Of a DNA stretch of 64,000 bases, positions 41,023-51,896 are shown piece by piece. The notes under the pieces were generated by a model. It made no database searches and was not told where the DNA came from. It saw only the letters and a list, made by a program, of their open reading frames with translations. The stretch is from an uncultured Alistipes sp. (lineage in GTDB: Bacteria; Bacteroidota; Bacteroidia; Bacteroidales; Rikenellaceae), in NCBI GenBank assembly GCA_944321945.1, contig CALUNE010000008.1:1-64000 (forward strand), written 5' to 3'. Numbering within the stretch: position 1 is the first letter of the stretch; the number at the start of each line of letters is the position of its first letter. The translations under genes and the position numbers were made by a program.

Positions 41023-41790
41023 CTACCGGTTGAGCCACTGGCGGAACTCCTGCACACGGTCGGTGCTGACCAATGCCTCCTCGCCTTCGGGCAGCGGCGG
41101 CTGGAGCTGAACCTTGATGCGGCTTCCCGAGTAGCGGATCATTTCGCGAATGGACTCGAACGAGATGATGAACCGTCGGTTGATGCGGAAGAAGAGTTTC
41201 GGCGAGAGCTTTTCACTCAGTTCGGTGAGCGTGCGGTCGAGCAGATAATCCCTGCCGTCGTGGGTCACCAGATGCAGGTACTTGCCGTCGGCCATGAAGT
41301 AGGCGACCTCGTCGACGGTCACCGATCGCATCCGGGCGCCGATCTGCACCAGAAAACGTTCCTGATAGATCGGTTCGGCGCTGTTGGCGGCCGTATCGGT
41401 CGAGGCTCTGTCGTCTGCCGTCGAACTTCCGCCCAACCGGGCGAGCAGTCCCAGCTTGTCGATCGCACGGCGCAGATCCTCGCGCCCGAAGGGTTTGAGC
41501 AGGTAGTCGATTCCCTTGTTCTCGAAGGCTTTGAGCGTGTAGGTGTCGTAGGCGGTGATGAAGATCACCGGCACGCGGATCTCCGCCCGGCGGAAGATGT
41601 CGAAGCCGTTTCCGTCGCCCAGATGAATGTCCATGAAGATCAGATCGTGGTCGACGCGACCGACGAGTTCGGTGGCTTCGGCCACCGAGGCGGCCGTGGC
41701 AACCACCTCGATCTGGGGGGCCACCTCGGCCAGCGTGTTGGTCAGTTCGGCGACCGACAGCGGTTCGTCTTCGATGATGAGGGCTTTCAT
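41023..41790 (-). CDS. LytTR-family response regulator
   Basis: A 255-aa regulator. The N-terminal receiver domain has acidic E7-D8, phospho-acceptor D54 in IFMDIHLGDGNG, the Thr in IFITAYDTY and Lys in YLLKPFGRED. The C-terminal LytTR DNA-binding domain spans from RMRSVTVDEVAYFMADGKY through LTELSEKLSPKLFFRINRRF to the C-terminus. A Ser/Thr/Ala linker joins them. The start at 41788-41790 avoids a 12-codon extension over a terminator. The only LytS-type kinase in the window is at 49546-51060, across the SusCD locus; pairing is inferred. Confidence 0.92.
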   Translation of the reverse strand: MKALIIEDEPLSVAELTNTLAEVAPQIEVVATAASVAEATELVGRVDHDLIFMDIHLGDGNGFDIFRRAEIRVPVIFITAYDTYTLKAFENKGIDYLLKPFGREDLRRAIDKLGLLARLGGSSTADDRASTDTAANSAEPIYQERFLVQIGARMRSVTVDEVAYFMADGKYLHLVTHDGRDYLLDRTLTELSEKLSPKLFFRINRRFIISFESIREMIRYSGSRIKVQLQPPLPEGEEALVSTDRVQEFRQWLNR

Positions 41791-41806
41791 GGTGCGTAAA
41801 ATTACA

Positions 41807-41844
41807 AAAAAAAGGGCCCGGTGCAAAAACCGGGCTCTTTTTTT
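41807..41844 (-). terminator. Terminator after susD, before the LytTR regulator gene
   Basis: A 16-bp stem (41807-41822 with 41829-41844) has A and T tracts on both flanks. It lies 17 bp past the susD stop and only 17 bp before the regulator ATG, so the regulator is either expressed by read-through or from a promoter overlapping this hairpin. Confidence 0.85.
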
Positions 41845-41860
41845 GTACGGGGTGGCGCGA

Positions 41861-43222
41861 TCAGCTGTTCAGATCGGGATTGTTGTTGACGGCCGACTGC
41901 GGGAAAGGCAGCGTATAGCGCGAATCGTTGGGCTGGAGCGTGTAGGCGGAACCCTCGTACGAGTGGGTGATGGCGGGACGGGTCGTACGCCGCAGGTCGA
42001 GCCAGCGGTGGCCCTCCAACAGGAATTCCCGGGCCCGTTCGTCGGCCACTTCGCGGCGCAGCGCCTCGGCATCCAGCCCCTCGACTTTGTTCCGACGGGC
42101 CTCCATGGCTTCCGTTTTGAGCCGTCGTGCCTCGAGGTCGAGCAGATAGCCGCGCGCCTTGTCCAATTCGGCAGGGAGATACGAGCCGGCCTCGGCGGCA
42201 ATGAGGTAGAGCTCGGCCGCACGGATCGAAATGCGGTCCGACGACGAACGGTTGACCCCGTAGCGGGGCTGTTCGCTGCCTTCGATGGTCTTGGACTGCA
42301 GGTAGTTGAAACGCAGGTCGTTGGCCGTATCGAAGAGACTGACGATTCCGTCCGACAGCAGGCAGGCCCGGCGCAGATCGCCGTTTGCGGCGGCGAAGGG
42401 GCGGTCGAGAGCCAGAATCGACTCGGTCGAACCGGCCTGCCAGGGAAGCTGTGTCTTGTCGCTGACGGCGTTCAGATCGACAAGCGGATATTTCGCCAGC
42501 AGCGTGACGGCCGCATCGTAGGCCTCCTGCCAGCGCTGCATGTAGAGCAGCACGCGGGCCCGGAAGGCCGTGAGGGCATCGAGCGAGAAGCGGTAGTTGC
42601 GCGTGGCGTCGGGCTGCCGTTCGAGGCTCATCAGCGCTTCGGCCCGGGCGATGTCGTCGAGGATGTGTGCGTAGACGTTCTCGACGCTCGTCGGGCGGAA
42701 CTGCTGTTCGATGTCGATATGGCCCGAGAGGACGATTCCGCGGTCGGTCGAGGCCGTAGCGGGGTTGTAGGGCTGGCCGTAGAGGTTCACCAGCTGGAAA
42801 TGGTTGTAGGCCCGCAGGGCGTAGGCCTCGCCGAGGATCTGCTCCATCGGCTCCCCGGCATCGTCGACGTCGGCATCCCGGATGTTCTCGATGACGGCGT
42901 TGGCGTAGAAGATCGACTGGTAGAAGAACTGGTAGGGCAGCTCCTGCATCTGACTGCCGTACTGCCACGTGTAGTTGTAGCCCAGCGGCACGACGTCGCC
43001 GGCATTCAGGAAGGCGCCGGCATCGATCATCCCGACCTCGTCGGCCAGCAGGGCCGTGTAGGACTGTGCCTCGCCGAACGGATAGGCGTAGTAACCCGTG
43101 GTGAGCAGGGCGCGGAATTCGGAGGTCTTGTGGGGAATGACCTGCCCGACGGGCTCGATCTCGAGGTAGTTGCAGCCGGCTGTCGCGAGAGCCGCCAGAA
43201 GAATATATGCTCGTTTTTTCAT
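41861..43222 (-). CDS. SusD/RagB-family outer-membrane lipoprotein
   Basis: Surface nutrient-binding lid that works with a SusC-type TonB-dependent channel. The 453-aa protein has the lipoprotein signal MKKRAYILLAALATAGC, then the typical LEIEPVGQVIP start. TPR-like helices follow (EQILGEAYALRAYNHFQLV is the most conserved), and the C-terminal RagB/SusD segment has EFLLEGHRWLDLRRT. An ATG three codons downstream of a GTG is used as start. susC ends 12 bp upstream. With a protease gene alongside, peptides or glycopeptides are plausible cargo; no glycosidase is present. Confidence 0.94.
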   Translation of the reverse strand: MKKRAYILLAALATAGCNYLEIEPVGQVIPHKTSEFRALLTTGYYAYPFGEAQSYTALLADEVGMIDAGAFLNAGDVVPLGYNYTWQYGSQMQELPYQFFYQSIFYANAVIENIRDADVDDAGEPMEQILGEAYALRAYNHFQLVNLYGQPYNPATASTDRGIVLSGHIDIEQQFRPTSVENVYAHILDDIARAEALMSLERQPDATRNYRFSLDALTAFRARVLLYMQRWQEAYDAAVTLLAKYPLVDLNAVSDKTQLPWQAGSTESILALDRPFAAANGDLRRACLLSDGIVSLFDTANDLRFNYLQSKTIEGSEQPRYGVNRSSSDRISIRAAELYLIAAEAGSYLPAELDKARGYLLDLEARRLKTEAMEARRNKVEGLDAEALRREVADERAREFLLEGHRWLDLRRTTRPAITHSYEGSAYTLQPNDSRYTLPFPQSAVNNNPDLNS

Positions 43223-43234
43223 GTTTCGCACGTT

Positions 43235-46200
43235 TTAGAAGGTGATGTTCAGACCGACGGAGTAGCTTCGCGCCAGCGGTTGCGCATAGATGTTGCCGTA
43301 GGTCTCGGGATCGAAGTATCCGTCGTAGTTCGAGGCGATGACCAGCGGGTTGCGGGCCTCGAAGTGCAGCCGGAGACCAGCCATGTGCAGTTTGCGGGTG
43401 ATCTTCTCGGGGAAGGTGTAGCCGAGGCGGATGCTGTTCACACGCAGGTAGTTGATCCGGTGGTACCAGATGTCGAGATTCTGGAACAGGGCGCTGGCCC
43501 CCCAGCTGTTGCTCTGGTCGAGGATCCAGTAGTAGACGCGGTAGGGGTCGGGATTCTCGCTCCAGGTGTCACCCCACTGCGAGCCGTCGGACTGCCGGTT
43601 GCCGACCAGTGCCGGGTAGATTCCCGAGGGGTTCGCCGGCGACCAGATCTGCCGGACCTTGGTCGAATAGTTCTGTCCGGGGCTGGTGGCCGTCGGCGAG
43701 TAGAAGGGGGTCTCCTTGACGAGCTGGCCGATGACGAAGTTGCACGATACGGTGAGGTCGAACCCGCCGAAGTAGAAGCGGTTGTTGAAGCCGCCCGTCA
43801 GATCGGGGTTGAGCGACCCGATGTAGGAGAGGCGGTTGCGCACGTCCGAGATGTTCTGGTCCATGACCGGGCCGTAGACGAAGTATTCGGGAATCCCGAG
43901 TCCGAAGGGGTCGGTCTGTTCGAGACGGAAGTTGACGAACTCCTGCAGCGAGACCTTCTGCCCCTCCTTCCAGAACATCGGAATGCCGTTGGCGTCAAGT
44001 CCGGCGGTGCGCAGTGCGAAGACCGCCGCCGAGGAGTATCCCTCGAGCGAGGGGCTCCAGTCCTTGTCGTTGACCAGCACGCGGTCGACGCGGTCGGTGT
44101 TGTGGGCCAGGTTGATCTGCGTCTCCCAGCGGAATCCCGGGGTGCGGATGTTCACGGTGTTGATCGAGAATTCGATACCGCGGCTCGAGATTTCGCCGTA
44201 GTTGCTCGACGTGGTGACGAATCCCGTTTCGGTGGGGATCATGCGCGAGGTGATCAGATCCTTGCTGCGGCGGCCGTAGACCTCGAAGGTGAATCCGAGG
44301 CGGTTGTCCAGTGCGGCGAAATCGAGAGCCGTGTTCCAGGTATAGGTGGTCTCCCAGCGGAGGTTCTGGTTGGGCGGCGAGCTGACGTTGATGGCATCCT
44401 CGACGACACCTCCCGGGTTGCGCGTGGTCCATTCGCCGAGGATGTAGGGCGAGGTCGTGCGGTCGATGTTGCCCTGGGCGCCGTACGAGACGCGCAGCCG
44501 CAGGTTGTTCAGCCATCCGAGGTTGCGCAGGGCGTGTTCGCGGTTGATGTTCCAGGCGCCCGAGATTGACCACATGGGGTTGAACTTGTACTTGGGATCG
44601 ACACCGAAGAGGTTCGTGCCGTCGTAACGCATCGAGCCGAAGAGCGTGTAGCGGTTGTCGTAGGTGTACGAGGCCGTGAAGAAGTAGGAGAGGTAGCGGT
44701 TCTCGTAGAACGACCGCTGATACTGCCGGAAATAGGTGCTGTTGGCCAGATTGCGGCCGCTGTCGGTGGCCGGGAAGACGATCGGTTCGTTGGTCATCGT
44801 GCGGGGGTCGTAGCCGAAGCCCTTGGTGTGGACCGACGTGTTGGTCGTGGCGCGCATCTCCAGACCGGCCATCAGGTCGACTTCGTGACGTTCGGCGAAC
44901 GTACCCGAATATTCGGCCTGTGCCTTCCAGGTATACTGGGCCAGGTCGGCGTTCCAGTTCTGGATGATGCCGCCCTGGGGCATGTATCTCACGCCGTCGA
45001 TCACCGAGTAGAGGGCATACTTGCGCGTGAAGTAGGTATCCTCGCGGGCCATCTTCTCGGTGAACGAGTTGTCGACCTGCAGACCGAACTGCGTGAAGAG
45101 GCGCAGCCCCCGCACGGGACGGTACGAAAGGTCGAAGATCGACTTGATCGACCGCGTGCGGAGCGTGTAGGAGGTATTGGCGCGCTCCTCGAGGATGTTG
45201 AAGTCGAGCACGTTGTCGTTATCGCCCTGATAGGCGTTCATGTCGGGGTCGTAGGCGTAGCTTCCGTCGTCGTTCCAGGCGTTGAAGTAGGGGTTCACCG
45301 TGCGGCTGTAACGCGAGGGGTTGGCCAGCACGTCGGTATCCGAGACGTAGGAGCTGTTGCGGTTCTGGCCGATGAAGACCGAGGCTCCGAAGGTGAGGTT
45401 CTTCAGCAGGTCGTAGTCGGTCTTCATCGTGAGGTTGAGGCGCTCGAAGCCCGTCCCGACGGTCGTGCCCTCCTCGTTGTAGTAGCCTCCCGAGAGGTAG
45501 TAGCTGGCGCGGTTGCCGCCTCCCGAGAGGTTGAAGCTGTACTGCTGGTTGAGCGCCACGCGATAGATTTCGCGGCCCCAGTCGGTGCCGTCCGTGCGCA
45601 GGGCGTCGATTGCGCGGCGGGTTTCGGGCGAGAGGGCCCCGATGCCGCCCTGACGCAGGGCCGTGCGTTCGTCGGCCCGGTCCAGAATGCGGGCTACGCC
45701 GCCCATCGACGAGAGGTAGTTCAGACGTCCGTCGGCGGCCAGGGCCAGCTCGAAGTCGACCTTCTCGGAGGCGTTCATCAGATGGAGTTTCGAGAGGTCG
45801 GGACGGTCCGTGACGAAGAGCGACGCCGAGACGTTCACCCGCGTGGGCTGGTTGCGGGCGCCCTTCTTGGTGGTGATGATGATGACGCCGTTGGCGGCGC
45901 GGGCGCCGTAGATGGCCGTGGCGGCGGCATCCTTCAGCACGGTGATATCCTCGATATCGGAGGGGTTCAACCCGGCGATCGAGAGGTTGTAGAGGTTGTC
46001 GATGTTCTCTTTCGACGACCAGTCCGTGGGGATGTCGTTGCCCTCGAGCGGAATGCCGTCGAGCACCCACAGCGGATCGGTGTTGCCGTTGAGCGTCACC
46101 GTGCTGCGGATCTTGACCTTGCTGGCGCCGCCCGGGGCACCGGTCGTGGGGGTCGACGTCAGTCCGGCGATCGATCCCGAAAGCATCTCGCCGACACTGG

Positions 46201-46627
46201 CCACGCCGTCGCGCGTGATGTCCTCCATCTTGACGTTTGCGATCGAGGAGGTGAGTTTGCGCTTTTCGATGCGCTGGTATCCGGTGACGACGACGGCATC
46301 GACCTGATTCGACGTGGCATCGAGGCGGATCGTGAAGAGACTGCGGCCCGAGATGTCAACGGTTTGGGATTCATAGCCCAGGTAGCTGACGACGACCTTG
46401 TGAACGCTGGCCGGGAGGGTGAACTCGAATCGCCCCTCGTCGTAGGCGATGGTTCCCTGCGGGTTGTAATCCTTGGCCTGGGTCTCTTCGGGGGCGATGA
46501 AGACGGTGGCTCCGACGAGCGGCGAACCGTCGGCCCGGTCGAGTACCTGGCCCGTGATCTTCCGGGTCTGCTGTGCGGAGACAATGACCGGAACGATCAG
46601 CATGATGAGCGGAAGGAATCGTTTCAT
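43235..46627 (-). CDS. SusC/RagA-family TonB-dependent outer-membrane channel
   Basis: A 1130-aa TonB-dependent transporter. Signal peptide MKRFLPLIMLIVPVIVSA is followed by a carboxypeptidase-regulatory-like domain (KITGQVLDRADGSPLVGATV), the TonB box region VDAVVVTGYQRIEKRKLTS, the plug domain with the SusC signature AAATAIYGARAANGVIIITTK, and a 22-strand barrel ending in an aromatic residue (YSVGLNITF). It is the transport half of the pair with SusD downstream. The metzincin-type protease gene lies 154 bp upstream on the same strand. Confidence 0.97.
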   Translation of the reverse strand: MKRFLPLIMLIVPVIVSAQQTRKITGQVLDRADGSPLVGATVFIAPEETQAKDYNPQGTIAYDEGRFEFTLPASVHKVVVSYLGYESQTVDISGRSLFTIRLDATSNQVDAVVVTGYQRIEKRKLTSSIANVKMEDITRDGVASVGEMLSGSIAGLTSTPTTGAPGGASKVKIRSTVTLNGNTDPLWVLDGIPLEGNDIPTDWSSKENIDNLYNLSIAGLNPSDIEDITVLKDAAATAIYGARAANGVIIITTKKGARNQPTRVNVSASLFVTDRPDLSKLHLMNASEKVDFELALAADGRLNYLSSMGGVARILDRADERTALRQGGIGALSPETRRAIDALRTDGTDWGREIYRVALNQQYSFNLSGGGNRASYYLSGGYYNEEGTTVGTGFERLNLTMKTDYDLLKNLTFGASVFIGQNRNSSYVSDTDVLANPSRYSRTVNPYFNAWNDDGSYAYDPDMNAYQGDNDNVLDFNILEERANTSYTLRTRSIKSIFDLSYRPVRGLRLFTQFGLQVDNSFTEKMAREDTYFTRKYALYSVIDGVRYMPQGGIIQNWNADLAQYTWKAQAEYSGTFAERHEVDLMAGLEMRATTNTSVHTKGFGYDPRTMTNEPIVFPATDSGRNLANSTYFRQYQRSFYENRYLSYFFTASYTYDNRYTLFGSMRYDGTNLFGVDPKYKFNPMWSISGAWNINREHALRNLGWLNNLRLRVSYGAQGNIDRTTSPYILGEWTTRNPGGVVEDAINVSSPPNQNLRWETTYTWNTALDFAALDNRLGFTFEVYGRRSKDLITSRMIPTETGFVTTSSNYGEISSRGIEFSINTVNIRTPGFRWETQINLAHNTDRVDRVLVNDKDWSPSLEGYSSAAVFALRTAGLDANGIPMFWKEGQKVSLQEFVNFRLEQTDPFGLGIPEYFVYGPVMDQNISDVRNRLSYIGSLNPDLTGGFNNRFYFGGFDLTVSCNFVIGQLVKETPFYSPTATSPGQNYSTKVRQIWSPANPSGIYPALVGNRQSDGSQWGDTWSENPDPYRVYYWILDQSNSWGASALFQNLDIWYHRINYLRVNSIRLGYTFPEKITRKLHMAGLRLHFEARNPLVIASNYDGYFDPETYGNIYAQPLARSYSVGLNITF

Positions 46628-46737
46628 GGGAGTGTGAATCTATTAGTGAATTTTTCGTAAATTTCGTGTTTTTGACAGCAATTTTCGCCGTGCGGTTTCG
46701 GATCGTAAGCATCTGATGCTATCCCCCGAAGTCGGGC

Positions 46738-46769
46738 AAAGCCGTCTTTCCGGAGGGGAAGACGGCTTT
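46738..46769 (-). terminator. Hairpin between the protease gene and susC
   Basis: An 11-bp stem (46738-46748 with 46759-46769) is next to a second small hairpin (about 46726-46740). There is no T-tract, so it may attenuate or stabilise the mRNA rather than terminate it. It lies 12 bp past the protease stop. Confidence 0.4.
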
Positions 46770-46781
46770 GCGGCGCTTTCG

Positions 46782-49421
46782 TTACAACATTCTCAAGGCC
46801 TCCTTGAGTCTCAATTCGAGATCCCGGTAGTGGTTCCGGGTGGCGGTGTCGCCGCTCTGGCTGCGGCTCCGTACGACGGTGAGCAGCCTTCGCATTTCGG
46901 CCCGTTTGGCCGAGGTGGTCTCGCTGACCCGCTGCATGAGTTCGTAGCTGCGCTGGGTCTGCAGTCCGAGCTCCTCGGGGCGTGGCAGACGGGGCAGTTC
47001 GAGTTCCGGAGCCTGATGCATGAGGCAGCAGCCGCGACAGCCATCGTCAAGCGCGCTCGGAGCATCGTGGAGCGTTGCACCCAGCTTGGTGGTCTTCACC
47101 ATGGTGAGGTTCGACGAGACGATCAGCGCATCGACGTAGTTCTTCTGGCTCATGCGTTCGTAGAGCGTCAGCGAGCGTCCGCCCGGGCGGAGGAAGACCG
47201 CCTGCGTGATGCGGTCGAGCATCTCTTCGGGGGTGAAGGTCCCGTGGCCGCGGCCCTGCCGGGCCTCGATCTCGTACATGCGGAGCATGCGGCGGTCGTC
47301 GAGCAGTTCGTAGTAGACCTTGTACTGGAGTTCGCGGGCGAAGTTGTAGGGGGCGTACTCCATCTGACCGAAAGGCGATGTGCGATGCGGATAGCAGTGG
47401 TCCCAGGCCGCGGCGCCGAAGAGCCATTCGGGCAGCTGGAAGACCTCCTCGATCAGGTAGTCGACGCTGCGGCGCTGCATCTCGGCCGGCACCGGAACGT
47501 AACGGTCGATGTCGTGGCCCGTGACGACCTGGTTGAGGTAGAATCCGCCGACGTTGGTCTTCACGTGGTCGGCGTAGGTCAGCCATTGGAAGACGATCGA
47601 CATCAGAAAGCGTCCGGCTTCATATTGCAGTTCGCCTTCGCGGGCGGTCCACTCCTCAACATGGGGGATGATGCGCCGCAGATTGGCCAGTCCGTAGCGG
47701 CTGGCCCGCACGGCGTCGTCACCCAGATCCTCCGACTGTGCGCGTGGATCGATCCCCTCGCGCGACTGTTCGCCGTAGCGGTATGCGGGATCGTCCTCGT
47801 GTTCGCGCAGCCAGGCATTGAGCGTCGGCAGCTCTTCGTGGGGATCGTCGACATCGAGCCAGCGGTAGCCCCAGCGGATGGCGTGACGGTCGTAGGCGCC
47901 GATACGGGGCGTGAGCTGCGTGATGCCGTCCTCGGGCTGCGCCACGTAGTTGAAGCGGGCGTAGTCCATGATCGAGCTGGCCGTGCCGTGGGCATCGGTG
48001 TAGCTCTTCGAACGGAGCGAATCGACCGGCACGCAGTACGAGGCGGCGAAGTTGTGTTTCAGCCCGAGGCTGTGGCCCAGCTCGTGCGACGAGACGAACC
48101 GTACGGCATTGCCCATCAGCTCCGTAGGCAGCACGTTGGCGCGAGCCGCGGGGTCGACGGCACCCGTCTGCAGGCGAATCCACGAGTGGAGGATGCTCAT
48201 GACGTTGTGCCACCAGATGATGTCCGCTTCGATGATCTCACCGCTGCGCGGGTCGATGACCGAGGGACCCATGGCGTTGGCCAGCTCCGAGGCGGCGTAG
48301 GTCACCACCGAGTAGCGCACGTCGTCGATGTCGAAGTCGGCCTCCTCGTCGGGCCCGACTTCACGGGCCTGGATGGCGTTCCTGAAGCCGGCGGCCTCGA
48401 AGGCCTCCTGCCACTCTTCGATGCCGCGCTTGATGTAGGGCACCCAGACTTCGGGCGTGGCGGGATCGATCCACAGCACGATGGGCTTGGCCGGTTCGAC
48501 CAGTTCGCCACGCAGATAGCGTTCCCGATCCTCGGGGCGGGGTTCGAGCCGCCAGCGGTTGATGAAGGCCCGCTCTTCGGCCTTCTGCTGCGTATCGTTG
48601 AAGTAGAGGTGGCCGATCTCGAAGTAGCCCACGCGGTCGTCGGAAAAGCGCGGGCGCATCGGCTCGCGGTCGAGCAGCACCAGATTCGAGGTGATCTCGA
48701 CGGTGAGCGGCGTCGGTTCGCCCTCCTCGCCCGAGCGGTTGCCGGCGAGGATCGACTTGACGAGGATGTTGCGCGGGAAGGCCTTGACCGTGCCGATCTT
48801 CGAGAGTTCGCGGTTGACGCTGCCCGAGCGCAGTGCTCCGAAGAGGTCGTTGAAGCTCTTCTCGCTGCCGTCGAAGACCTTGTTGACCTTGACGATCACC
48901 GAGGTCGAATCGGCATTGTAGGCCTCGATCGGGAACTGTTCGATGACCGATTCGCGGTAGTTGTCCTTCACCGAACGGGCGATGCGGTCCGTTGCCGGGG
49001 CCGAGATGCGGGCGTCGCGCGTCGTGACCCATACCTTTTTATAAAGGGTATCCTTGTGGAAGCGGACGAGTTTCTCGCCGAATCCCATACCCTTGTTGAT
49101 CCCGGCATCGTTGAGCGCATAGGGGACGCCGGATATCTTGTTGACAACCAGGATGTCGCGTTCGAGCAGCGAGTCGGGAATCTCGAACCACAGATCGGTC
49201 CCCTTGCGGTGGACGTCGAACATGCCCCGGTCGGTCGAGGCCTCAAGGAGGATCTTCTCGTAGGGGCTCTTTTCGTTTTGGGTCGTATCGCCCGGTTGGG
49301 CGATCGCTTCGGACCGCTTCGACTTGCGCGGCTGACGCTTCCGGGCCTCGGCGGGAGCCGTGAGCAGGAGAAGCGCCGTCAGCACAAGCAGCGGCCGGAT
49401 GAATCCGCGTGTATCTCTCAT
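46782..49421 (-). CDS. Large zinc metalloprotease (DUF5117/DUF4953 type, metzincin motif)
   Basis: An 879-aa predicted periplasmic or secreted protease. Signal peptide MRDTRGFIRPLLVLTALLLL ends near APAEA, followed by a basic linker. The N-terminal domain (GMFDVHRKGTDLWFEIPDSL to RVGYFEIGHLYFNDTQQK) corresponds to the family I know as DUF5117. The extended zinc motif HELGHSLGLKH (H446, E447, H450, H456) defines a metzincin-like site. Such proteins are common in Bacteroidota but poorly characterised. Position directly upstream of susC-susD suggests it processes the substrate of that transporter. Confidence 0.88.
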   Translation of the reverse strand: MRDTRGFIRPLLVLTALLLLTAPAEARKRQPRKSKRSEAIAQPGDTTQNEKSPYEKILLEASTDRGMFDVHRKGTDLWFEIPDSLLERDILVVNKISGVPYALNDAGINKGMGFGEKLVRFHKDTLYKKVWVTTRDARISAPATDRIARSVKDNYRESVIEQFPIEAYNADSTSVIVKVNKVFDGSEKSFNDLFGALRSGSVNRELSKIGTVKAFPRNILVKSILAGNRSGEEGEPTPLTVEITSNLVLLDREPMRPRFSDDRVGYFEIGHLYFNDTQQKAEERAFINRWRLEPRPEDRERYLRGELVEPAKPIVLWIDPATPEVWVPYIKRGIEEWQEAFEAAGFRNAIQAREVGPDEEADFDIDDVRYSVVTYAASELANAMGPSVIDPRSGEIIEADIIWWHNVMSILHSWIRLQTGAVDPAARANVLPTELMGNAVRFVSSHELGHSLGLKHNFAASYCVPVDSLRSKSYTDAHGTASSIMDYARFNYVAQPEDGITQLTPRIGAYDRHAIRWGYRWLDVDDPHEELPTLNAWLREHEDDPAYRYGEQSREGIDPRAQSEDLGDDAVRASRYGLANLRRIIPHVEEWTAREGELQYEAGRFLMSIVFQWLTYADHVKTNVGGFYLNQVVTGHDIDRYVPVPAEMQRRSVDYLIEEVFQLPEWLFGAAAWDHCYPHRTSPFGQMEYAPYNFARELQYKVYYELLDDRRMLRMYEIEARQGRGHGTFTPEEMLDRITQAVFLRPGGRSLTLYERMSQKNYVDALIVSSNLTMVKTTKLGATLHDAPSALDDGCRGCCLMHQAPELELPRLPRPEELGLQTQRSYELMQRVSETTSAKRAEMRRLLTVVRSRSQSGDTATRNHYRDLELRLKEALRML

Positions 49422-49459
49422 TTTCCTATTGCCTTTTCGTGCGGGACGAAATCCGCATG

Positions 49460-49467
49460 ATGCAATA
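49460..49467 (-). promoter_or_regulatory. Possible -7 element of the protease-susC-susD transcript
   Basis: The minus strand reads TATTATTG, one mismatch from TAnnTTTG, within an A/T-rich tract 39 bp before the protease ATG. Confidence 0.35.
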
Positions 49468-49502
49468 ATAAAATTTTTTATTTAGAGGCGGAAATCTGCG
49501 GT

Positions 49503-49544
49503 TGTGAATGCCCGAATCGGGGGTGTGAATGGCCGATATGGGGG
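49503..49544 (-). promoter_or_regulatory. 21-bp-period direct repeat, candidate LytTR-regulator binding site
   Basis: The 8-mer tgtgaatg occurs at 49503-49510 and 49524-49531, and the surrounding 21-bp units match at 17 of 21 positions. LytTR regulators generally bind paired direct repeats spaced about two helical turns apart. The pair lies between the kinase stop codon and the protease gene, 36 bp upstream of the possible -7 element. The assignment is inference from spacing and context. Confidence 0.45.
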
Positions 49545-49545
49545 A

Positions 49546-51060
49546 TTATTGCTCTTCGGGCAAGAGCGGGAGCCGACAGCGGAAGAGCCCTTGCTCGATG
49601 CTGATCGAGATGTTCTGGTCGGTGTAGAAGCGGTAGACCGAGCGGATGCGTTCGAGCCCGACGCCGAGTGATTCGGGGGATTCGTTGTCGCGCGGCGTGC
49701 AGTTGTTCTCGATGAGCAGCGTTTCGCCCTCGGTGCGGATGCGGATGCGGAGCGGATTGCGTGTGGAGATGCGGTTGTGTTTCACGGCGTTTTCGACCAG
49801 CGTCTGAAGGCTCATGGCCGGGATCCGGCGGTTGCGCAGTGCGGGGTCGATGGCCGTGGTCAGTTCGAGGCTCTCGCCGAAACGGATCTGTTGCAGCGAG
49901 TGGTATTGCCACGTGAATTCGATCTCTTCGGCCAGCGTGGCGAGGATCTGCTTGCGGCGTTCCAGCACGCGGCGGTAGACCCGCGAGAGGGTGAGGGTGA
50001 ATTCGCGGGCCTGTTCGGGATTGCAGCGGATCAGCGCGTAGAGTGAGTTCAGCGAATTGAAGAGGAAATGCGGGTCGATCTGTTCGATGACCTGCTGCAG
50101 TTGCAGTTGGGCCGACTCCTGTTCCGAGAGGCGCCGCAGGGCATACTCCCGCCGCCAGCGGCGTTGTGCCAGGACGAGCAGCACGGCAAACAGCAGCACG
50201 GAGATCAGCGCCGTGAGGATGGTGTAGAGGTGAAAGTCGTCGATCTCCTGTTCGATGACCAGCCGGGGGATGCCGATTCCGGCCACCCAGCACTGCGAGC
50301 CCAGCCGAATGGGGTAGTAGATACGCTGTTCCTCGACGCCGAGGTAGTCGGAGAAGGCCTCCGTGAGGACCCTGCGACCCGTCGTCGTGGCCCTCCGAAA
50401 GGCTTCGCGAGAGGCTTCGTCCGTCAGCGTCTGTCCGAGCAGCAGGCTGTCCGGGTGGAATACGATCACTCCGTGAGGATCGAGCAGCATGGCCGAACTG
50501 CGGCTGTGCGGATGCTTTTCGGTCATGTAGGCGTAGAGTTTCGGCAGCGGGTAGTCGACTCCGCAGGTGCGTAACTGGCCTGCGGCGTTGCGGACCGTGC
50601 ACGTCAGCACCCAGATGCGGATACCTTCCCGTTCGACGATCGCGCTGCGGATTCCGCTGTCGGCTTTCGGGATGCGGCCGCTTCCGGTTGTGGTGAAGGC
50701 TCCGTCGCGCGAATAGCGGCGCAGAAGTCCGTCGCCGGGTTTTGCGAACCAGATGGCGTCGGCCTTGGCATCGACCTCGAGCAGCGTGGAGGTCAGAACC
50801 CGCAGTTCGCGGTCCGAGACGTCCGTATGCGTCCCCAGAAAGCGGGCCGAGGCGGTGAGGATCTTCTCCGTGCGGTCGAGTTCGGCCTGCAGCAGCAGGC
50901 AGTGCGATTCGCTGATCTCGGTGACGATGCGGTCGCTCATCTGTCCGGCACGGCGGTTGATGATCCGTCCGGTCAGCAGCACGCCGGCCGCGAGCAGCAC
51001 CAGCAGGATGGCTCCCGTGACGAGCAGACGTTCGCGATGGGTATGTTTTCGGTGTGGCAT
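49546..51060 (-). CDS. LytS-type sensor histidine kinase with periplasmic Cache-like domain
   Basis: A 504-aa membrane kinase. TM1 (LLVTGAILLVLLAAGVLL, about residues 12-30) and TM2 (TILTALISVLLFAVLLVLA, about 272-292) flank a periplasmic double-Cache-like domain (AMLLDPHGVIVFHPDSLLLG is the second repeat). The cytoplasmic part has a short coiled coil, the His_kinase domain with H331 in QIDPHFLFNSLNS and an ATPase with the N-box LVENAVKHN. This class partners LytTR regulators. It directly abuts the SDR gene upstream and precedes the protease gene. Confidence 0.93.
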   Translation of the reverse strand: MPHRKHTHRERLLVTGAILLVLLAAGVLLTGRIINRRAGQMSDRIVTEISESHCLLLQAELDRTEKILTASARFLGTHTDVSDRELRVLTSTLLEVDAKADAIWFAKPGDGLLRRYSRDGAFTTTGSGRIPKADSGIRSAIVEREGIRIWVLTCTVRNAAGQLRTCGVDYPLPKLYAYMTEKHPHSRSSAMLLDPHGVIVFHPDSLLLGQTLTDEASREAFRRATTTGRRVLTEAFSDYLGVEEQRIYYPIRLGSQCWVAGIGIPRLVIEQEIDDFHLYTILTALISVLLFAVLLVLAQRRWRREYALRRLSEQESAQLQLQQVIEQIDPHFLFNSLNSLYALIRCNPEQAREFTLTLSRVYRRVLERRKQILATLAEEIEFTWQYHSLQQIRFGESLELTTAIDPALRNRRIPAMSLQTLVENAVKHNRISTRNPLRIRIRTEGETLLIENNCTPRDNESPESLGVGLERIRSVYRFYTDQNISISIEQGLFRCRLPLLPEEQ

Positions 51061-51795
51061 CTATTCCCGGCTTCGGATCTTCAAACGTTCCCACACCCCT
51101 TGCGGGATGGCCCTCCACAGCGCGACCAGCAGTGCATACCGGCGGTCGATGACCACCCTGCGGCGGGGGTTGCGCAGTACCTCCATGATTCGGCGGGCCA
51201 CCTTTTCGGGACGCATCAGCAGGGGGTAGTGTCCGGTGGGTGAGAGTATCGGCGTGGCGACGAATCCCGGCCGGATATCCGTGAAGCGGATCGGGATCCC
51301 CTCCATGCGGGCCAACTGGGCCAGCGCGTCGATATAGGTGCTCTGCATGCGTTTGGTGGCCGAGTAGGCGGGGGCCGATCCGAGGCCCCGTGTCCCGGCG
51401 ACCGAGCTGATGACGGCGAGTTGCCCGCCGCCGGCCTGGCGGAAATAGCCGAATGCTGCCGTCACCATCCGCACGAATCCCTCGCCGTTGGTGCGGAGCG
51501 TCGACAGTTCGATGTCGGGTCTCAGGTCGGTGTTGCGGCTGCCGATTCCCGACGAATGGAGGTAGATGTCCATCCCGCCGAGGCGCTCGATGAGACGGGC
51601 CAGATGTTCTGCGGCATCGTCGCGGGTGATGTCCAGCGGTTCGATTTCGACCTGCCGGGGAGCTTCGGCGCGCAATGCTTCGAGGGCTTCGATACGGCGT
51701 CCGGCGGCACCCACGCGCCAACCTTCGCGGATACAGAGACGTGCGGTTTCCAGTCCGAGACCGGAGGTGGCACCTGTGATGACGATGCGTTTCAT
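51061..51795 (-). CDS. Short-chain dehydrogenase/reductase
   Basis: NAD(P)-dependent SDR of 244 aa. It shows the dinucleotide motif TGATSGLGLE at the N-terminus, the NNAG-like segment as HSSGIGSRN (atypical), catalytic Ser in AVISSVAG and YSATK with the catalytic Tyr and Lys. The C-terminal RPGFVATPIL is typical. The substrate cannot be told. The ATG at 51793-51795 giving MKRIVITGATSG is favoured over one eight codons upstream. The kinase gene begins immediately after its stop, so they are cotranscribed. Confidence 0.88.
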   Translation of the reverse strand: MKRIVITGATSGLGLETARLCIREGWRVGAAGRRIEALEALRAEAPRQVEIEPLDITRDDAAEHLARLIERLGGMDIYLHSSGIGSRNTDLRPDIELSTLRTNGEGFVRMVTAAFGYFRQAGGGQLAVISSVAGTRGLGSAPAYSATKRMQSTYIDALAQLARMEGIPIRFTDIRPGFVATPILSPTGHYPLLMRPEKVARRIMEVLRNPRRRVVIDRRYALLVALWRAIPQGVWERLKIRSRE

Positions 51796-51896
51796 GGCAT
51801 TCCCGGGTTTGGTTTTCATCGAACAAGATACGACATGTCGGTCGAATTTGCAACTTTTGCTCCGCGATTGGTTCGAAGCGGGTTGAGGGGCGATAA

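Follow-up and report, generated by a model that had tools for sequence, protein, structure and literature searches.

Importers of the SusC/SusD type (SusCD) in polysaccharide utilisation loci are controlled by SusR, by hybrid two-component systems or by extracytoplasmic function (ECF)/anti-sigma systems. To our knowledge, SusCD importers without a link to glycans, and the way they are controlled, are far less well understood. RagA is a peptide importer. The locus reported here occupies positions 41,023–51,060 of a 64,000-nucleotide stretch of an uncultured Alistipes sp. (contig CALUNE010000008.1, positions 1 to 64,000; hereafter the window). It consists of a sensor kinase gene, a protease-susC-susD operon and a gene for a LytTR-family response regulator. 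The draft genome (2.2 Mb, 24 contigs) is 78% complete.

Among two-component systems, BtsS/BtsR and YpdA/YpdB of Escherichia coli resemble the present locus in combining a kinase and a LytTR regulator with a direct-repeat operator, here a candidate one, before a transporter target (for the YpdB repeat, PMC4847170). The present locus differs from both in its predicted double-Cache periplasmic sensor, where theirs is 5TMR-LYT, in its target, which is an outer-membrane SusCD importer plus a protease, and in its gene arrangement, with kinase and regulator genes usually standing one at each end of the target operon. It shares with polysaccharide utilisation loci a SusC/SusD pair, an enzyme dedicated to degradation and a sensor linked to the locus. 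Unlike those loci it shows candidate LytTR control via a conserved direct repeat, and a Pfam/NCBIfam scan of the six locus proteins gives no glycosidase or other linked carbohydrate-active enzyme, as the original prediction had said of glycosidases. No ECF/anti-sigma or hybrid-kinase domain is found among these proteins. SusC shows no STN domain at E 0.1, and control by an ECF/anti-sigma pair was rejected on this ground.

RagAB of Porphyromonas gingivalis, a SusCD-type importer implicated in protein uptake (PMC11817032), belongs to the same SusC/SusD family with proposed peptide import, and an oligopeptide SusCD system has been proposed in F. psychrophilum (PMC9723704). A study of F. johnsoniae reports LytTR and SusD mutations and, in the part available, gives no link between the two (PMC10197871). 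No open-access paper joining LytTR control to SusCD was found, the available parts of PMC7440613, PMC11278836 and PMC10197871 included, in a search that was partly weak and had subscription literature mostly outside its scope. The combination and the conserved candidate operator appear to be new; proposed peptide SusCD importers and LytTR-driven transporters were already known. Prediction of regulator, likely operator and target together, across distant Bacteroidota families, makes non-glycan SusCD regulation testable in culturable strains, among which Butyricimonas synergistica DSM 23225, Pedobacter foliorum, Cellulophaga omnivescoria and Alistipes montrealensis carry the module. It also gives the DUF4953/DUF5117/DUF5118 proteases a context and offers the phylum a candidate LytTR operator sequence.

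The conserved unit and its direct repeat

The locus is a real regulatory variant of the SusCD locus. We consider it likely that it forms a self-contained, self-regulated uptake module, in which the kinase-regulator pair controls the protease and SusCD genes through a repeat at the protease promoter and the cargo is peptide. The original prediction had named these genes, their positions and the minus strand, and the open reading frames (ORFs) and Pfam/NCBIfam domains agree with it. The ORF coordinates place six genes on the minus strand in the order short-chain dehydrogenase/reductase (SDR), kinase, protease, SusC, SusD and regulator. Five of these genes, with the sequences before the protease gene, make up the module:

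49546..51060, minus strand: sensor histidine kinase, 504 aa, with a predicted N-terminal periplasmic double-Cache domain, a PF06580 His_kinase domain and the H-box IDPHFLFNSLNS
49504..49531, minus strand: 21-bp-period direct repeat CATTCAC-N14-CATTCAC, proposed from its sequence as the regulator binding site
49463..49470, minus strand: TATTATTG, candidate promoter element of the protease gene, which we take to be of the -7 type; kept in 9/9 aligned genus genomes
46782..49421, minus strand: DUF5118-DUF5117-DUF4953 protease, 879 aa, with the zinc motif HELGHSLGLKH, the Met-turn SIMDY and a signal peptide without lipobox
43235..46627, minus strand: SusC/RagA TonB-dependent transporter (TIGR04056) with CarboxypepD_reg and Plug domains (Pfam)
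41861..43231, minus strand: SusD/RagB surface lipoprotein (SusD-like_3 and SusD_RagB) with lipobox ATAGC; probable ATG at 43222
41023..41793, minus strand: LytTR-family response regulator with receiver (Response_reg) and LytTR DNA-binding domains; ATG at 41793

A search of 180 genus genomes with the sensor part of the kinase (residues 1–304) finds it in nine, the window's included. All nine show the order SDR-kinase-protease-SusC-SusD-regulator as far as their contigs reach, with SecA and a cytidine/deoxycytidylate deaminase as outer neighbours on one side and SSB, a phosphorylase and LpxK on the other; the contig of G023 ends after the regulator and that of G032 starts after SecA. In 393 genomes drawn from the order there are 61 sensor matches at E 0.001, the window's own among them. 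Two of these, in G385 and G285, are relatives of the whole sensor (27–29% identity); the other 58 are weak and, in the matches listed, cover residues ~140–300, as a shared Cache domain would lead one to expect. G285 carries kinase-protease-SusC-SusD-regulator, and G385 keeps protease-SusC-SusD-regulator and the repeat, with the kinase ~255 kb away on the same contig.

A protease-profile scan of named genomes gave at least 509 confirmed loci, of which the best 80 were used, so that the sample favours the query's own branch. The order kinase-protease-SusC-SusD-regulator is present in 22 of the 80: Alistipes (7), other Rikenellaceae (2), Sanguibacteroides, Butyricimonas (4), Odoribacter, Pedobacter (2), Pararcticibacter, Filimonas, Sinomicrobium oceani, Bizionia and Cellulophaga. 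Three further loci have the parts rearranged (Leeuwenhoekiella L162, Flavobacterium L172 and, with kinase and regulator together some kilobases off, L177), L148 is cut by a contig end, and L169 has the kinase and no regulator in the stretch covered. In the remaining loci, which include Bacteroides, Phocaeicola, Chitinophaga and Riemerella, the pair is not shown, and the protease-SusC-SusD core is present in most of them. Five Chitinophaga loci (L163, L165, L166, L171, L174) have a kinase and a regulator of weak similarity (25–28% identity) ~0.5–6 kb upstream, and a partial receiver match is present in L186, L192, L196 and L208; all of these were classed with the loci lacking the pair. The searched genera also have other DUF4953-type proteases that are not accompanied by this kinase, in G052, G068, G081 and G071 (a 5.8-kb contig). 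The conservation of gene order in the sensor-bearing genus genomes and in the 22 loci, to which the original prediction had pointed as a check, supports kinase, protease, SusC, SusD and regulator as one conserved unit, as far as sequence comparison can tell.

When the gap between kinase and protease genes is aligned for the nine genus genomes, a direct repeat stands out as conserved. Its two boxes, which in the window read GCCATTCAC and GGCATTCAC, lie at a distance of 21 bp, and ~33 bp after them comes the conserved TATTATTGCATC. Elsewhere the repeat takes the form TTCACTCC-N13-TTCACTCC, and Pedobacter and G385 have a third box that keeps the register. Direct repeats are what LytTR regulators bind; for YpdB, a member of this family, the repeated sequence is GGCATTTCAT (PMC4847170), which resembles the window box GGCATTCAC. 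The 21-bp-period repeat is likely to be the operator of the LytTR regulator, for which it is the candidate.

A consensus scan with a threshold of at least 13/16 detects the repeat in 23 of the 25 loci that have the kinase immediately upstream and in 2 of the 52 that do not. These two, L172 and L177, carry kinase and regulator at another place in the locus. Loci were scored as having the pair when a kinase match above 60 bits lay within 600 bp upstream, L172 and L177 being added by hand. With these two relabelled, and with L154, L157, L176, L182 and L211 (short upstream sequence) and L159 (a near-copy of L158) excluded, the repeat is present in 24/26 loci with the pair and in 0/48 without; L142 and L143 miss the score with 11 and 12 of 16. 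A consensus-free scan for any 8-mer repeated at 7/8 or better, at spacings 9 to 40, gives spacing 21 in 24 of the 26 pair loci (L143 and L167 are missed, at 6 of 8) and any other spacing in at most 4; 200 mononucleotide shuffles give a mean of 1.2 and a maximum of 5 of 26. In Flavobacterium L172 the protease and SusCD genes are separate transcription units, and the repeat is found on both.

The window's genome contains 17 matches to CATTCAC-N14-CATTCRC at up to two mismatches, versus 1 for the reversed control. The pattern is exact once, at 49531–49504, has one mismatch once and has two mismatches in 15 cases. The one-mismatch site (C2:39772) was rejected as a second target, as it lies within a reading frame. 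In 15 other genomes there are nine exact TTCACTCC-N13-TTCACTCC matches, eight of them at the module promoter. A second exact repeat in G583, a Bacteroidales metagenome-assembled genome (MAG), at L283 9186–9214, stands before a sub-threshold receiver-like gene and a methyl-accepting chemotaxis gene and is, by position, a possible second target.

It could be argued that protease-SusCD and the pair merely co-travel, with the pair controlling other genes (e.g. envelope homeostasis) and the repeat belonging to another regulator. The G583 repeat, which suggests that the regulator may have other targets, would fit this, as would the Bacteroides loci that have protease-SusC-SusD and lack the pair. However, the repeat tracks the pair, is kept where kinase or regulator has moved (L172, L177, G385), and accounts at the module promoter for nearly all exact matches, and we regard mere co-travelling as very improbable.

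A number of observations weigh against control of the operon by the pair through the repeat. The blind-rule count is 22/24 versus 2/50, L172 and L177 having been labelled only after the repeat drew attention to them. The consensus was derived from gaps of kinase-bearing loci, a circularity that the consensus-free scan answers in part, and that scan also finds a 21-bp repeat in 5/50 loci without the pair. Phylogenetically independent contrasts number only 4, and 4/4 agree (sign test p 0.125). At up to two mismatches the 15 other genomes give 75 matches versus 33 for the reversed control, which is non-specific, so that only near-exact sites are informative. L169 has kinase and repeat and no regulator within the stretch covered. 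In Bacteroides the same core occurs without pair or repeat, thus the pair is not essential to the transporter.

Kinase and regulator

The His_kinase domain (PF06580) of the window's kinase scores 78.5 bits against a cut-off of 25.2 and is present in 27/27 aligned kinases, the window's included, while none of the 27 gives a match to 5TMR-LYT (PF07694) at E 0.01. A 5TMR-LYT membrane sensor is attributed to all LytS-like kinases (PMC10653868). By its predicted domains, with no 5TMR-LYT found, this is a PF06580 kinase with a Cache sensor and not LytS proper. Of the earlier description as "LytS-type" the catalytic domain therefore stands and the sensor does not. The Cache-like sensor also predicted from the sequence reappears as a double-Cache domain in an AlphaFold model of the kinase (mean pLDDT 83, pTM 0.54, 27 sequences). 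The 27 kinases show dCache_1 in 15 and sCache_3_2 in 9; by sequence the window's own kinase displays a sub-threshold sCache_3_2 match only (E 0.0065). Top Foldseek matches of the model include many Cache-domain chemoreceptor structures and mmHK1 sensors, with target-normalised TM-scores mostly 0.5–0.7, as well as poorly fitting multi-domain models.

Cache domains bind many small molecules. This leaves room for a kinase that senses a general starvation or fermentation signal, comparable to pyruvate for BtsS, rather than a protease product. The best known systems with this type of regulator do respond to pyruvate (PMC10653868, PMC5552118), but their sensor is the 5TMR-LYT membrane domain and here it is a periplasmic double-Cache domain. 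We see such a signal as a serious possibility, somewhat short of an even chance.

Kinase and regulator look like each other's partners from their genomic context. The window holds one PF06580 gene and one LytTR gene, in keeping with the lone kinase and regulator originally noted (the window-wide kinase scan covered PF06580). In the genome as assembled there are four PF06580 kinases and five LytTR genes. Each of the three other kinases has a LytTR gene within ~1 kb, and the nearest LytTR gene to the locus kinase is the regulator across the operon. The fifth LytTR gene, which speaks against so simple an assignment, has no PF06580 kinase near, but its contig ends ~3 kb on. The orthologous regulator and the kinase are direct neighbours in Leeuwenhoekiella L162 and Flavobacterium L172. 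The 25 module regulators included in a tree with 29 further LytTR regulators are placed on one side of a branch, the support of which (93/34) is weak and also counts against the pairing. The tree omits L159, the G385 gene and the split G112 gene, and L009 of the window's own genome was dropped (19.6 bits). In G112 (MAG Zagget8; L122 14635–15419) the regulator is split over two overlapping frames, either a sequencing error or a decayed gene. The pairing originally proposed is thus upheld by the conserved order, by the regulator beside the kinase in Leeuwenhoekiella and Flavobacterium and by the repeat at the protease promoter, and in the genomes looked at neither gene was seen with another, closer partner.

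Protease, transporter and cargo

The metzincin-like protease of the original prediction is recognised as DUF5118+DUF5117+DUF4953 "Met-zincin" with both zinc motif and Met-turn. H446, E447, H450, H456 and M485 are invariant in 10/10 proteases, and HExGHxxGxxH and the Met-turn are intact in 78/78 relatives of at least 600 aa from the 80 loci. The best match in a profile search of the Protein Data Bank (PDB) is MMP-14, at E 0.011 over 30 residues; an AlphaFold model had a mean pLDDT of 50 and was not used. None of the three DUF families is mentioned in the open-access literature searched. The N-terminus looks like a plain signal peptide, with no lipobox in the window's protein (a lipobox-like match is found in 7/80 relatives), and no sorting tail was found with Pfam. 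The periplasm is therefore the simplest location, and cleavage would probably take place there, after import. This would reverse the order first proposed, in which cleavage came before import.

SusC matches TIGR04056 with 650 bits and adjoins the SusD-family gene (SusD_RagB), whose product has a clear lipobox cysteine. The closest solved SusC and SusD are those of PDB 8ypt/8ypu, for which no paper was found in the open-access literature. Against PDB chains the window's SusC scores 821 bits with 8ypu/8ypt, 232 with a SusC homolog, 182 with RagA and 112 with BT_2264. 8ypu in turn matches the SusC of the protease-SusC-SusD locus of Bacteroides fragilis Q1F2 with 2148 bits over 987 residues, and this close relative lacks the pair and the repeat. 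A GH20 hexosaminidase gene divergent to the protease-SusCD core of B. fragilis Q1F2 (L208 8121–9698) hints at glycopeptides.

Being no closer to RagA than to other PDB SusC chains, the transporter counts against a peptide assignment, and the proposed peptide cargo rests on the protease. The same circuit might instead serve a glycan, a glycopeptide or a metal complex, with the protease maturing or releasing something. The similar distance of SusC from RagA and from other chains, the B. fragilis GH20 gene and the silence of the open-access papers searched on the three DUF families would allow this. The intact metzincin motif throughout the relatives and the lack of a glycosidase in the six locus proteins point the other way, and we judge a non-peptide cargo unlikely, though it must be reckoned with.

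For the self-regulated peptide module, the following sequence of events would apply. The periplasmic double-Cache domain would bind a small ligand, and the kinase, given its linkage, would phosphorylate the LytTR regulator, whose gene is found at the opposite end of the operon. The regulator would then bind the 21-bp-period repeat, a site seen in the sequence, and activate protease, susC and susD. SusD/SusC would carry a peptide or a fragment of a protein through the outer membrane, the metzincin-type protease would cut it, most likely in the periplasm, and the Cache domain could sense the cleavage products there. A wider version of this reading is that of a phylum-wide, ancient "protein utilisation locus", the peptide counterpart of the polysaccharide utilisation locus. 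There the pair would control essentially one promoter via a strictly 21-bp-spaced repeat and sense the post-import products of its own protease, and pair and operator would be acquired and lost as one, with Bacteroides among the lineages that would have lost or never acquired them. This wider version is tentative, and we lean slightly away from it.

Terminator, hairpin and neighbouring genes

The remaining features of the locus are as follows:

51061..51819, minus strand: SDR (Pfam/NCBIfam), neighbour of the module in Alistipes
46736..46771, minus strand: hairpin with a 13-bp stem and no T-run, between protease and susC; kept in 9/9 aligned genus genomes
41816..41835, minus strand: predicted intrinsic terminator between susD and regulator; kept in 9/9 aligned genus genomes
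41799..41807, minus strand: TAATTTTAC, candidate promoter element of the regulator gene (element type presumed), directly behind the terminator

The terminator that had been placed between susD and the regulator is present as a terminator-like hairpin (41835–41816, fold z -5.1). Terminator-like sites are not in excess in 16 kb (10 found versus 11.9 expected from shuffles), and of these the susD/regulator site is the one conserved in the nine aligned genus genomes. Terminator and promoter-like element overlap in one highly conserved block (window 41799–41835) in the same nine. As a conserved promoter-like element of its own follows the terminator immediately, the regulator is probably made independently of the operon, also when the operon is off. 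TTTTTG in the terminator hairpin loop, 19 bp before TAATTTTAC, may be what we take to be a -33 type of element. The hairpin between protease and susC is strong (fold z -4.5), with its stem sequence kept in all nine aligned genomes. It may set the ratio of the two products, and it is perhaps an mRNA processing or stabilising element.

The SDR had been listed with the locus at 41023–51060. The five module genes of that locus hold, but the SDR lies outside these coordinates and was rejected as a conserved part. It abuts the kinase start codon in only 5/9 genus genomes; a terminator-like sequence and the promoter-like TACATTTG intervene in G053, G112 and G109, and the spacer is longer in G023. Outside Alistipes the 80 loci show only weak (25–30%) opposite-strand matches, in L173, L174 and L213. 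An apparent SDR-kinase fusion in G109 (803-aa frame) is really two frames.

Tandem pairs of other DUF4953-type proteases are found in L099–L103 (G052, G053). These stretches also hold SusC/SusD-like genes, and nothing in them matches this kinase or regulator. L195, a contig filed under the name Paenibacillus, carries a Bacteroidales-type protease-SusC-SusD locus that groups with Bacteroidales in the protease tree, and this contig is probably mis-binned.

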